In this document: positions 3,680 to 28,304 of the stretch, piece after piece
Layout of the letters: each line of letters opens with the position of its first letter
Position numbering within the stretch: position 1 is the stretch's first letter
NCBI GenBank assembly: GCA_021775595.1
Contig: JAJFHN010000004.1
Span: 1-64,000 of the forward strand
DNA length: 64,000 nt
DNA from: Hyphomicrobiales bacterium
GTDB taxonomy: Bacteria > Pseudomonadota > Alphaproteobacteria > Rhizobiales > Methyloligellaceae
Direction: 5' to 3'
Program-made: the position numbers and the translations under genes
Notes under the pieces: model-generated
Database searches by the model: none
What the model was told of the DNA's origin: nothing
Seen by the model: the letters and a program-made list of their open reading frames with translations, nothing else

Positions 3680-4102
3680 TTAGGTCGTGTCCCTGCCGAC
3701 AAGGCGCACCAAAACGTCAACTCTCGAAATTTCCATGCCTTCTGGCGGCGTTGGCAGATCGCCAATATTGATCGTGCCCGATGGAATATCTTCGAGCGTG
3801 CCGTCGATCTCCGAGAAAAAATGGAAATGATTGGACGTGTTGGTATCGAAGTATGTCTTACAGCCCTCGACCGCCACTTCGCGCAACAAACCTGCTTGGG
3901 TCAATTGGTGCAGCGTGTTGTAGACCGTGGCAAGCGATACGGGCATGTCGCAGCGCAGCGCTTCCTCGTGCAGTTGCTCTGCCGTCACGTGGCGATCGCC
4001 CGGCGCGAACAGCAACTCGGCCAGCGAAACTCTCTGGCGCGTCGGCCTCAAGCCGGCATCGCACAACATCTTCCGGCCATCGATATGTCTGTGTTCACTC
4101 AT
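3680..4102 (-). CDS. irr: Iron response regulator Irr (Fur family)
   Basis: Transcription factor that in rhizobia senses iron through haem status and controls haem, iron-sulfur and iron-transport genes. The 140-aa protein has a Fur-type winged helix (about 15-75, including VSLATVYNTLHQLTQAGLL) and the Irr-typical YFDTNTSNHFHFF segment (84-96) followed by DIPSG and a GMEISRVDVLVRL tail. The adjacent-His haem site of characterised Irr proteins (HHH) reads His-Phe-His here, and no N-terminal GCPWHD haem motif is present. I use the ATG at 4102, not an upstream TTG, because a good -35/-10 pair would start transcription near 4140, inside that extension. It is divergent from fabA, a conserved arrangement in Hyphomicrobiales. 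Confidence 0.88.
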   Translation of the reverse strand: MSEHRHIDGRKMLCDAGLRPTRQRVSLAELLFAPGDRHVTAEQLHEEALRCDMPVSLATVYNTLHQLTQAGLLREVAVEGCKTYFDTNTSNHFHFFSEIDGTLEDIPSGTINIGDLPTPPEGMEISRVDVLVRLVGRDTT

Positions 4103-4146
4103 TTTGATTTTGCAGCACTCGTGCTTGTTAGGAATGTATCTCAACA

Positions 4147-4175
4147 ACTATATTTGGTAACAGCCCCAGCCGCAA
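4147..4175 (-). promoter_or_regulatory. Putative sigma-70 promoter of irr
   Basis: On the minus strand TTGCGG (4170-4175), 17-nt spacer, TATAGT (4147-4152). Predicted transcription start is about 4140, giving a leader of roughly 38 nt before the irr ATG. This AT-rich patch stands out in the 217-bp irr-fabA intergenic region. Assigned by eye from consensus. Confidence 0.45.
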
Positions 4176-23928: not shown

Positions 23929-25311
23929 TCATATGCGCTGATCGCGCCCGGGCAGAGATTGTGCCAGCCTCAATATGTCTCCATCAAGACTATTCGCCCC
24001 AATGCCGTTTATTTCAACCGGTGCGATCGTTCCGATCAAGTCCTCGTCGCCCATAGCGTGAACGGGTTGCAAATAGGGCGACCGACCCACCAGCTGGCCG
24101 GGTTTGCGCCCCTTCCGCTCCAGCAGTATGGGCATCGTGACGTTCATGAACCCCGCATTGAATGAGGATTTCTGCCGCTCGATCAGGGCTTGCAAGCGCT
24201 GTAACCGTTCCGATTTTACGGCGTCGGGAACCTGATCCTCGGCCAAGGCCGCCGGCGTTCCAGGGCGGCTCGAGTATTTGAATGAATAGGCTTGGGCGAA
24301 GCCGATCTCGTTCACCAGCGCCAGCGTCGCTTCGAAATCGGCATCGCTTTCGCCGGGAAATCCGACGATAACGTCGGTTGAAAGCGCCATATCGGGCCGG
24401 CCCTCACGGATTTTTGCGACCAGCTCCACATAGTCGCCTGCCGTGTGTTTGCGGTTCATCGCCTTCAAAATCCTGTCCGAGCCCGACTGAAACGGTAGGT
24501 GAAGATAGGGCATCAATTCCTCGATATCGCGGTGGGCGGCGATCAGACCAACGTCCATATCGCGCGGGTGGCTGGTGGTGTAGCGCAACCGCTCAAGCCC
24601 ATCGATCCGCGCCAAATGACCAAGCAGCCTGGCCAAAGACCAGACTTCGCCATCTGGCCCCTCTCCGTGATAGGCGTTGACGTTCTGGCCCAACAGCGTG
24701 AGCTCCTTGACGCCCGATCCAACCAGCGCCTGCGCCTCGGCTTCCACTTGGCCGACGGGCCGCGAAAACTCCGCGCCGCGGGTGTAGGGCACGACGCAGA
24801 ACGTGCAAAATTTGTCGCAGCCCTCTTGAATGGTCAAAAACGCCGTCGGCGCGCGGCCGCGCGCGCGATTCTTGGGAAGCTGCTCGAATTTGCCTTCGGC
24901 AGGGAACTCGGTCTCCACCACCGGTTTGCGCGTCTTGGCTTGCTCCTCCAAGAGTTGCGGCAGGCGCTGATAGCTTTGCGGCCCGATAACAAGATCGACG
25001 ATGCCCGAGCGCGCGACAATCTCCGCGCCTTCGGCTTGCGCCACACAACCTGCAACCGCGATCAGCGTTTCCTTGCCGTCGCGCGCGCGGGCATCCTTGA
25101 TCTGGCGCAGCCGGCCCAGCTCCGAATAGACCTTTTCGGCCGCCTTTTCGCGAATGTGACAGGTGTTTAAGACGATCAGATCCGCGTCATGGGCGTCCGC
25201 ATTCAGCTCAAAGCCGATTGGCGCCAGAACATCCACCATTCGTTCGCTGTCATAGACGTTCATTTGGCAACCGAACGTCTTGATGTGGAGTGTCTTGCGT
25301 TCCTTCGTCAT
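23929..25311 (-). CDS. miaB: tRNA-2-methylthio-N6-dimethylallyladenosine synthase MiaB
   Basis: Radical-SAM methylthiotransferase completing ms2i6A37 in tRNAs. The 460-aa protein has the UPF0004 domain with auxiliary-cluster cysteines Cys15 (TFGCQMN), Cys51 (NTCHIREKA) and Cys89 (AGCVAQ), the radical-SAM CxxxCxxC (Cys165, 169, 172) and a C-terminal TRAM domain (about 380-445). It carries two 4Fe-4S clusters, so it depends on iron-sulfur supply, and its start overlaps the fur stop by 1 nt (TGATG). Confidence 0.96.
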
Positions 25312-25748
25312 CAGGTCTTCGGCTTTGTCAGCGGCACGCCATAGAGCTCGAGCCTGTGGTCGACAAGACGATAGCCGAGCTCACGCGCGATCGCTTCCTG
25401 CAAGCGTTCGATCTGCTCATTTTGAAATTCGATCACGTGACCTGTTCGCATATCGATGAGATGGTCGTGATGCTCCTTGGCCACCTGCTCGTATCGGGCC
25501 CGGCCATCACCGAATTCATGCCTGGCCAGAATGCCCGCCTCCTCGAACAACCGAACCGTGCGGTAAACTGTGGAGAGTGAAATGCGCGGATCGACCGCAA
25601 TCGCCCGGCGGTGGACCTCCTCGACATCTGGATGGTCATCGGCAGCGGATAGTATCTGCGCAATCACACGGCGTTGGCCGGTCATGCGCATTCCTTTTTC
25701 CGAGCATAGGCGCTCGAGCCGGCTTTGATGCCTGGAGCCCTTCGACAT
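25311..25748 (-). CDS. fur: Fur-family metalloregulator (Fur/Mur)
   Basis: Metal-dependent repressor. The 145-aa protein has the winged helix (about 10-85, with [20 protein letters not shown]) and the [16 protein letters not shown] metal/dimerisation segment (93-108). The CxxC structural-zinc pairs of gamma-proteobacterial Fur are absent (DMRT occupies that place; the only Cys is residue 15). This is the pattern of the alphaproteobacterial Fur/Mur group, where manganese rather than iron is often the effector, so metal identity is open. It sits 69 nt downstream of rimI, upstream of and overlapping miaB. The start could also be the GTG three codons earlier. Confidence 0.88.
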
Positions 25749-25817
25749 CTTCCTCACACGACGACGCCACCTTGACCACGTTATAGGCCCCTCGATTGAG
25801 ACCGTCCACAGAGCGCA

Positions 25818-26285
25818 TCAGTCCCTCAGCGTTATCGCCAACACGCGCGCGTCCTGCGCGTCCTCTGCGTAATACCCCCGCCGCACACCGACCTCTTCGA
25901 AACCCAACGTGCGGTATAGGCCGAGCGCGGCCTCATTGTTCGCGGCGACTTCGAGAAAAACGCGGGCGACACCCTTCTCCGCAAGCTCGCCGAGCGCGCG
26001 CTCCCAGAGTGCCCGCGCTATGCCGCGCCGGCGCGATTCATTTGCCACCGCCAACGTAATGATCTCGGCCTCATCCACGGCGCATCGGCACACGATCAAT
26101 CCCGCCAAATGACCCGCCGCATGGGCACCGAACACAATACAGCCGGGATCGCTCGCATACGCCGAAAAATCGGCCGCAGGCCAGCTTGCATCGAAGCAGC
26201 GCCCATACAGTTCGGAATAGGATTCGGCTTCGCTTGCCTCGCCCCGCGCCACTTGCCAAGCAGCCGGCGCCAATGCCGTCATCAT
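25818..26285 (-). CDS. rimI: Ribosomal-protein-alanine N-acetyltransferase RimI-like
   Basis: GNAT-fold acetyltransferase, in E. coli acetylating the N-terminal Ala of S18. The 155-aa protein has the acetyl-CoA motif LAVANESRRRGIARALWERAL and the C-terminal NEAALGLYRTLGFEEVGVRRGYY characteristic of RimI. It overlaps the tsaB stop (ATGA), the classic tsaB-rimI pair, which makes RimI more likely than a generic GNAT protein. Confidence 0.88.
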   Translation of the reverse strand: MMTALAPAAWQVARGEASEAESYSELYGRCFDASWPAADFSAYASDPGCIVFGAHAAGHLAGLIVCRCAVDEAEIITLAVANESRRRGIARALWERALGELAEKGVARVFLEVAANNEAALGLYRTLGFEEVGVRRGYYAEDAQDARVLAITLRD

Positions 26286-26977
26286 TTCAGCCTCGGTACG
26301 GACTTGCCCGTTTGGGGTTTGGCGTCTGGCGGGCGAAGATAGAGCGGCGAAACCGTTGCTTCGGCCAGCGGTGCATTGAGTGCCATCTGGGCCAAGTCCT
26401 CCGCATCAGGCAGCAAGTCGGGCAACTGGGCGCCAATTCCTGAATCCGGACGCGCTGCCGCCAAAAGGTGCGCGCCGCTGCCGGCCGCAACCTCCCCTTC
26501 GCCCATTCGCGCTGCTGCGAGCTCGGGTGTCAGCAGTGCGATCTCGTCCAACGCAGCGCCGCGCCCGTCAAAGCGGCCAAAATAAACCTGCCCCCGGCGC
26601 GCGTCATGAACGATGGCAATCGGTTGGTCGGCTGCGATACCGGTCTCGCGCCGCGCCCGTCGCGCCATCACCGCGAGCGTGGTCAGGCCAACGAGCGGTG
26701 CACCCGTTGCCAGCGACAGGCCGCGCGCCGCTGCCACGCCCACGCGCACGCCGCTGAAGCTGCCCGGCCCCACGGTGACCGCAATGCGTTCGAGATCCTC
26801 GAAACGGCAATCGGCCTGTTCCATCGCCTTCACGATCATCGGCATAATTGCTTCGGCATGACCGCGCTCGCGCAGCTCTCGCAGCGCGATGATGTCGGCA
26901 CCATCATTGCCGTTTGCCGGGCGCGTAACCGCGGCAGAGCACGCCGCCAGGCAGGTCTCCAGTGCCAAAAGTCTCAT
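26282..26977 (-). CDS. tsaB: tRNA threonylcarbamoyladenosine biosynthesis protein TsaB
   Basis: Non-catalytic ASKHA-fold partner that dimerises with TsaD for t6A37 formation on ANN-decoding tRNAs. The 231-aa protein has the family signatures LLALETCLAACSAAV, RGHAEAIMPMIV and VTVGPGSFSGVRVGVAAARGL. The usual Asp of LALDTS is Glu, consistent with TsaB lacking the metal site of TsaD. AGGA precedes the ATG by 5 nt, just past the upstream reductase stop. Confidence 0.94.
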   Translation of the reverse strand: MRLLALETCLAACSAAVTRPANGNDGADIIALRELRERGHAEAIMPMIVKAMEQADCRFEDLERIAVTVGPGSFSGVRVGVAAARGLSLATGAPLVGLTTLAVMARRARRETGIAADQPIAIVHDARRGQVYFGRFDGRGAALDEIALLTPELAAARMGEGEVAAGSGAHLLAAARPDSGIGAQLPDLLPDAEDLAQMALNAPLAEATVSPLYLRPPDAKPQTGKSVPRLK

Positions 26978-26983
26978 TTGGTC

Positions 26984-27574
26984 CTAGATGATTTCGGCGA
27001 TTTCATTGAATTCAAAGCGGGGCGAACGTGGGAACAGCTTTGAAGAATCGCCGTATCCCAAATTGCACAGGAAATTCGATTTGATCTGCGTACCCGCGAA
27101 AAGCGCTTCATCGACACCGGCATTGTCGAAGCCGGACATTGGACCCGTGTCGAGACCCAGAGCACGGGCTGCGATCAAAAAATACGCGCCCTGCAGCGTG
27201 CCGTTGCGAAACGCCGTCGTCGCTATGTGGTCGGGCTTGCCCTCGAACCAGCTCTTGGCGTCATCGTGCGGAAACAGCTTCGGTAAGTGTTCGTAGAATG
27301 CGAGGTCGTAGCCAATAATGGCACACACCGGTGCGCTCATCGTCTTGGTCATATTTCCCGCCGAGAGAAACGGCTTCAGCCGCTCTTTCGCTTGCGCCGA
27401 CTTGGCAAACTGGATGCGCGCCGGCGAGCAATTGGCGCTCGTGGGACCCATTTTCATCAGGTCAATGAGCTCGGCAAGCAACGCGTCCGGCACGTCCTTG
27501 TCCAAAAAGACATTGTGCGTGCGCGCCTCAAAGAATATCTGGTCGAGGGCTTGAGAATCGATTGGATGTGACAT
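26984..27574 (-). CDS. RutE/HadB-type NAD(P)H nitroreductase family protein
   Basis: FMN-dependent reductase fold. From the ATG at 27574 (GGGAG about 5 nt upstream) the protein is 196 aa, the length of RutE. Visible are the FMN-binding [20 protein letters not shown] segment, the [34 protein letters not shown] block and the C-terminal [21 protein letters not shown]. RutE reduces malonic semialdehyde in uracil breakdown, but no rut genes are present here, so the physiological substrate is unknown. It lies between nfu and tsaB on the same strand with small gaps. A long open extension upstream has no start support. Confidence 0.85.
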
Positions 27575-27642
27575 GGCCGCTCCCAACAGCGAACCGCCGT
27601 TATGAGCACATGGGTCCGGCAAGGGCAAGCCGGCCCGGGCGG

Positions 27643-28200
27643 CTAGATCGGACGAACTTCCTGAATCTCGGGAATAAAGTGGCGCAGCAGATTTTCGATT
27701 CCATGCTGCAGCGTCGCCGTCGAGCTCGGGCACCCGGCGCAGGCGCCCCGCATATGCAAGAACACGATGCCTTCCTTATAGCCGTGGAAAACTATGTCGC
27801 CGCCGTCTTGGGCGACAGCCGGGCGCACCCGCGTCTCGAGCAGCTCTTTGATCGTGTTGACCGTTTCCTCGTCCTCAGGAGCGAAGAATTCATCGTCCGT
27901 CTGATTCTCGCCCTCGAGGCCCTCGACCACCGGCGCCCCGGAGAGGTAGTGCTCCATAATGGCGCCCAGAATGGCGGGCTTCAGGTGCTGCCATTCGGCT
28001 TCGCCCTTGGTGACGGAAATAAAATCACCGCCAAAGAAGACGCCGGCCACGCCGTCGATATCGAACAGCCGTAGGGCCAAGGGTGACTGCCCCGCTGCGC
28101 CTGGATCGCGAAAATCGAGCGTCCCCGAGCCAATCACGCTGCGGCCGGGAATAAATTTCAGGGTTGCCGGATTGGGCGTGGCTTCGGTCTGAATGAACAT
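27643..28200 (-). CDS. NifU-like iron-sulfur scaffold/carrier (Nfu)
   Basis: The 185-aa protein has an N-terminal Nfu_N domain (about 1-88, [19 protein letters not shown]) and a C-terminal NifU domain (about 115-180) with the cluster-binding CAGC (Cys154, Cys157) in [15 protein letters not shown]. It receives and hands on 4Fe-4S clusters to apo-enzymes; MiaB, TrmB-independent but encoded downstream in the same direction, is a plausible client. The promoter region has an Irr-type palindrome over the -10 box, suggesting iron-responsive control. Identity as an Nfu protein is clear; exact clients are not. Confidence 0.93.
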
Positions 28201-28266: not shown

Positions 28267-28304
28267 ATTAGAATCATTCTATGAAATATCGCCTCGCCTT
28301 GCAA
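28267..28304 (-). promoter_or_regulatory. nfu promoter with overlapping Irr-type (ICE) box
   Basis: Minus strand: TTGCAA (28299-28304), 17-nt spacer, TAGAAT (28276-28281). The -10 box is half of the 13-nt perfect palindrome TAGAATCATTCTA (28269-28281), inside the 17-mer ATTAGAA-TCA-TTCTATG (28267-28283), close to the published Irr element TTTAGAA-N3-TTCTAAA. A protein bound there would block the promoter. Predicted leader about 70 nt. Confidence 0.5.

Follow-up and report, generated by a model that had tools for sequence, protein, structure and literature searches.

In rhizobia, Brucella and related bacteria, Irr is one of the main regulators of iron. It binds DNA in its heme-free form, and its role at a given promoter is set by the location of its binding site, the ICE (Irr box) (PMC7762939). 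Where the ICE covers the start site, as in mbfA and bfr, the gene is repressed (PMC3413700). In B. japonicum, Irr represses both of these genes (PMC4902296); in R. sphaeroides, it binds the promoter of mbfA (PMC3413700). At hmuR/hmuT of B. japonicum, according to work cited in PMC3836376, the ICE precedes the promoter and has a positive effect. For the alphaproteobacterial iscR-suf genes, an Irr box was predicted by Rodionov 2006, as cited in PMC6956336. The ICE and Irr are already known, as is the prediction that Irr controls genes of iron-sulfur assembly. An ICE at nfu, the gene of an iron-sulfur carrier, is not mentioned in the literature searched, a body of work to which the Rodionov 2006 regulon prediction did not belong. 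Much of the knowledge on the Irr regulon comes from B. japonicum, which belongs to a genus without an ICE at nfu.

In this study, we analyzed a stretch of 64,000 nucleotides from a member of the Hyphomicrobiales (the window), in which a predicted ICE lies in front of nfu and an irr gene is present. The features concerned are given below.

3680 to 4147, minus strand: irr, heme-responsive regulator of the Fur family (NF045678, 207 bits, cut-off 150; NF045677, 195 bits, cut-off 170)
23929 to 25311, minus strand: miaB, tRNA methylthiotransferase (TIGR01574, over cut-off)
25311 to 25757, minus strand: regulator of the Fur family, Fur/Mur type (PF01475; NF006999 at 101.9 of 146 bits, below the NCBIfam Fur cut-off)
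25818 to 26285, minus strand: rimI-like GNAT acetyltransferase (PF00583), overlapping tsaB
26282 to 26977, minus strand: tsaB, threonylcarbamoyl-adenosine synthesis (PF00814), 6 nt after rutE
26984 to 27577, minus strand: rutE-like malonic semialdehyde reductase of the nitroreductase family (NF003768, over cut-off), next downstream of nfu
27643 to 28200, minus strand: nfu, iron-sulfur carrier of 185 aa with an Nfu_N domain and a NifU C-terminal domain with CxxC (PF08712 and PF01106, over cut-off)
28267 to 28283, minus strand: predicted ICE (Irr box), a 7-3-7 palindrome conserved before nfu in relatives
28276 to 28281, minus strand: predicted -10 hexamer TAGAAT of the nfu promoter, inside the ICE
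28299 to 28304, minus strand: predicted -35 hexamer TTGCAA, with a 17-nt spacer

The ICE is located in the 158-nt gap between uspA and nfu. On the plus strand, positions 28267-28283 read ATTAGAA-TCA-TTCTATG (CATAGAA-TGA-TTCTAAT on the minus strand), and the center of this 17-mer is a perfect 13-bp palindrome, TAGAATCATTCTA, at 28269-28281. Compared with TTTAGAA-N3-TTCTAAA, the 17-mer has mismatches at three of 14 positions, all of them outer ones. The sequence TTAGAATCATTCTA at 28268-28281 is the sole exact TTAGAANNNTTCTA in the whole 2.9 Mb genome. A match with three mismatches, taken alone in 64 kb, is unremarkable and not significant, as 0.50 matches to the consensus with up to three mismatches are expected and one was found. 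On the nfu strand, TTGCAA-N17-TAGAAT agrees with the sigma-70 consensus at nine of 12 positions and is the top-scoring promoter near the ICE, which covers the -10/+1 region of this best predicted promoter and whose half-site itself resembles a -10 box. In the relatives, the best -10 is located either inside the ICE, as here, or 2-12 nt upstream of it, and a single fixed -35/-10 layout was not found among them. The first-pass annotation had described the palindrome, the 17-mer and the hexamer spacing correctly, and its promoter with a -10 box in the palindrome is the best one at this locus but not a general arrangement among relatives. Its calls of nfu as an iron-sulfur carrier (both Pfam domains over cut-off), of irr in the same window (over both curated Irr cut-offs) and of co-directional genes downstream of nfu, including fur and miaB, were borne out as well: rutE, tsaB, rimI, fur and miaB follow on the same strand.

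A lack of conservation of the palindrome upstream of nfu in relatives had been named as one of the findings that would refute the idea, and the comparison did not refute it. In 80 nfu loci from named genomes, any match with at most three mismatches that lay no more than 220 bp from the start was counted as an ICE. Such a site is present upstream of nfu in 31 of the 80. This is far more than chance, since about 0.05 were expected from the rest of the loci (0.16 in shuffles); the 332 kb of remaining sequence of those loci holds one match of equal level. In a survey of the order covering 61 genomes, the region upstream of nfu was readable in 27 genomes of the same family, and each of them has an ICE 49-82 bp before the gene. 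The nearest named relatives of the window by Nfu include Methyloligella and Methyloceanibacter. Of 31 further families of the order, 20 have an ICE before nfu with no more than three mismatches, one of them a perfect match; outside the order it was found in one of 29 families. In the set of named genomes, the nfu loci of Hyphomicrobium, Roseibium, Aestuariivirga and Nitratireductor carry it. According to the information profile of 36 sites, conservation covers the ICE and a few bases next to it: the T, AA, TTC and AA of the palindrome are near-invariant (about 2 bits), and most columns beyond the palindrome and its immediate flanks stay below 0.35 bits.

The site is not universal in the order. 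A close ICE before nfu is absent from 11 of the 31 other families, and all 16 Bradyrhizobium nfu loci are without one. The absence of the nfu site does not mean the absence of Irr, because Irr-family matches were found in 61 of 61 genomes of the order (59 over cut-off); loss of Irr as the cause of the missing sites was rejected on this ground. In Bosea (L052 and L066, at -76) and in another family (L163), a variant palindrome, TGGAA-N3-TTCCA, stands upstream of nfu. This is possibly a diverged ICE and was left out of the counts. One same-family genome (G009) has a second, more distant nfu copy of about 64% identity without an ICE (L168, C56:76532-77080).

We searched whole genomes with a sequence-only covariance model (R1) built from the nfu sites of the 31 relatives, with the window excluded, and scored at most 150 candidates per genome. 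In the genome of the window, the eight best matches fall at four places: iscR-iscS (suf), with an ICE upstream of iscR, fbpA, the nfu site, and both ends of a PepSY_TM/ApbE cluster. The nfu site of the window ranks third, with a modest score (13.6 bits, E of 0.38 per genome). In five relatives, the best matches include mbfA, bfr, iscR-suf, an fbpA-like gene and nfu, and the mbfA and bfr assignments exceed the cut-offs of NF045676 and TIGR00754, respectively. The fbpA-like iron ABC transporter operon of the genome has a tandem pair of ICEs upstream (C101:37235-37284; L089:3238-3284). Convergent to this operon is the bacterioferritin gene (C101:33782), whose own ICE, ATTGTAATCGTTCTAAG, is weaker, with four mismatches, about 58 nt before the likely start. 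Two more tandem pairs, at C49:62512-62549 (L090:2513-2549) and 66724-66763 (L179:2725-2763), delimit one cluster that encodes a PepSY_TM protein, ApbE and a protein judged porin-like by eye, without a Pfam match. It is possible that this cluster is iron-related and controlled by Irr.

Irr is by far the best candidate for the binder because the motif derived from nfu sites finds the mbfA and bfr targets and because irr lies in the window. The irr gene is 24 kb from the ICE and divergent from a fabA-fabB-fabI run, its translation shows an HxH motif (NHFHFF), and inspection by eye revealed no ICE at its own promoter. A predicted Irr/ICE site on the nfu promoter, as originally put forward, is strongly supported by its conservation and by the motif common to mbfA, bfr, iscR-suf and fbpA, which are known or predicted targets of Irr. 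It is highly probable that the palindrome is an ICE at which heme-free Irr would bind over the -10/+1 region of nfu and repress the gene at low iron. The first-pass annotation gave no direction of control; both the placement of the site and published work suggest that nfu is repressed at low iron, and it is from the position over -10/+1 that repression by heme-free Irr is predicted. Under low iron or heme, heme-free Irr would bind the ICE across the -10 and start site, block RNA polymerase and lower nfu expression, while plentiful heme would make Irr release the ICE and allow transcription of nfu, likely together with rutE, tsaB and rimI. Here we infer the binding of Irr to the ICE, the repression and its downstream reach. 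A shortage of iron would then probably turn down the final step of iron-sulfur delivery. By these comparisons, the palindrome is almost certainly a binding site of Irr, which would make nfu a further target of the Irr regulon, one whose site is absent from Bradyrhizobium, where Irr has mostly been studied.

The opposite direction, in which the ICE is an Irr site from which Irr activates nfu at low iron, appears improbable, although it has some observations on its side. Whether Irr activates or represses is a matter of site position, and it is common for Irr to activate directly (PMC7762939). When Brucella abortus lives inside host cells, the level of its NifU protein goes up 1.5-fold, and SufB and Irr increase as well (PMC5587712); this counts against simple repression if that Brucella gene carries an ICE. 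A caution for the repression reading comes from the iscR P2 promoter of R. sphaeroides: an Irr box was predicted there from -13 to +1, in the same geometry as the nfu ICE, and no binding of Irr to it was seen in vitro (PMC6956336). Against activation, the ICE of this locus and those of the relatives lie on the best -10 or directly after it, which is the position of the repressed bfr and mbfA sites and not one upstream of the -35.

It is very improbable that the palindrome serves a different protein, either one of the Fur/Mur type or an Rrf2-type regulator such as IscR. A TTAGAATCATTCTAA-like sequence can also be read as a 7-1-7 palindrome of the Fur/PerR kind, a Fur-family gene is present downstream in the nfu gene run, and the genome has an IscR-type regulator. 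On the other hand, the Fur family of this genome consists of three genes only (Irr, the Fur/Mur type and a Zur-like one) with no separate PerR, and the model built on nfu sites retrieves mbfA and bfr, which are established Irr targets. PerR was rejected as the binder for the first of these reasons. Control by RirA was rejected too, as no protein of the genome reaches the RirA cut-off and the closest one fits NsrR slightly better. A chance palindrome sitting in a promoter, for which the half match expected per window could be quoted, was rejected as having next to no probability by the position-specific conservation before nfu and the 332-kb background.

If Irr represses at the nfu ICE, the question is how far downstream the control reaches. 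The order nfu-(rutE)-tsaB-rimI-fur is kept among relatives. Several same-family genomes show an overlap of rutE with the end of nfu, and tsaB and rimI overlap or nearly so in most genomes compared. In the window, gaps of 65 nt (27578-27642) and 60 nt (25758-25817) separate nfu from rutE and rimI from fur, and no terminator-like site was found in either. The fur and miaB genes share a single base in the window, whereas most other families of the order have 0.85-1 kb between the two, a spacing with room for one more gene. Judged from this arrangement, ICE control likely reaches nfu-rutE-tsaB-rimI; its extension to fur is plausible at most, and to miaB only possible. The case for fur and miaB is weaker because rutE and fur are each preceded by a gap of about 60 nt and because fur and miaB are separated in most other families. 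The first-pass annotation had placed iron-sulfur delivery, a second metalloregulator and tRNA thiomethylation together under iron control. This is partly supported: the part on delivery agrees with the ICE at nfu, and the conserved gene order means that fur and miaB may be included.

A wider reading is that in most Hyphomicrobiales a single ICE lets Irr control an nfu-(rutE)-tsaB-rimI-fur(-miaB) unit, which would connect Irr to Fur/Mur by a regulatory link that Bradyrhizobium either lost or never had. We regard this as rather doubtful. If it is true, the heme status would set three things at once: iron-sulfur delivery, a set of tRNA-modification enzymes and the amount of a second metalloregulator. 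The shared gene run offers a candidate link from Irr to Fur/Mur. The conserved nfu ICE by itself would extend Irr control to late iron-sulfur delivery, beside suf assembly, iron storage and iron uptake.

The nfu site can be compared with three known systems. The bfr and mbfA sites of B. japonicum and R. sphaeroides share with it the 7-3-7 form TTTAGAA-N3-TTCTAAA and, going by the predicted nfu promoter, a place over the promoter or start site. They serve iron storage or export, whereas the predicted nfu ICE belongs to an iron-sulfur carrier gene. The box predicted at iscR-suf is, like that of nfu, associated with an iron-sulfur gene, and in R. sphaeroides its -13 to +1 position corresponds to the predicted geometry of the nfu ICE; in that system, Irr did bind a different site, which lies some 50 nt upstream of P3, an internal promoter (PMC6956336). 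In hmuR/hmuT, iron control likewise depends on an ICE, but the nfu ICE overlaps the predicted -10/+1 region instead of lying upstream of the promoter.
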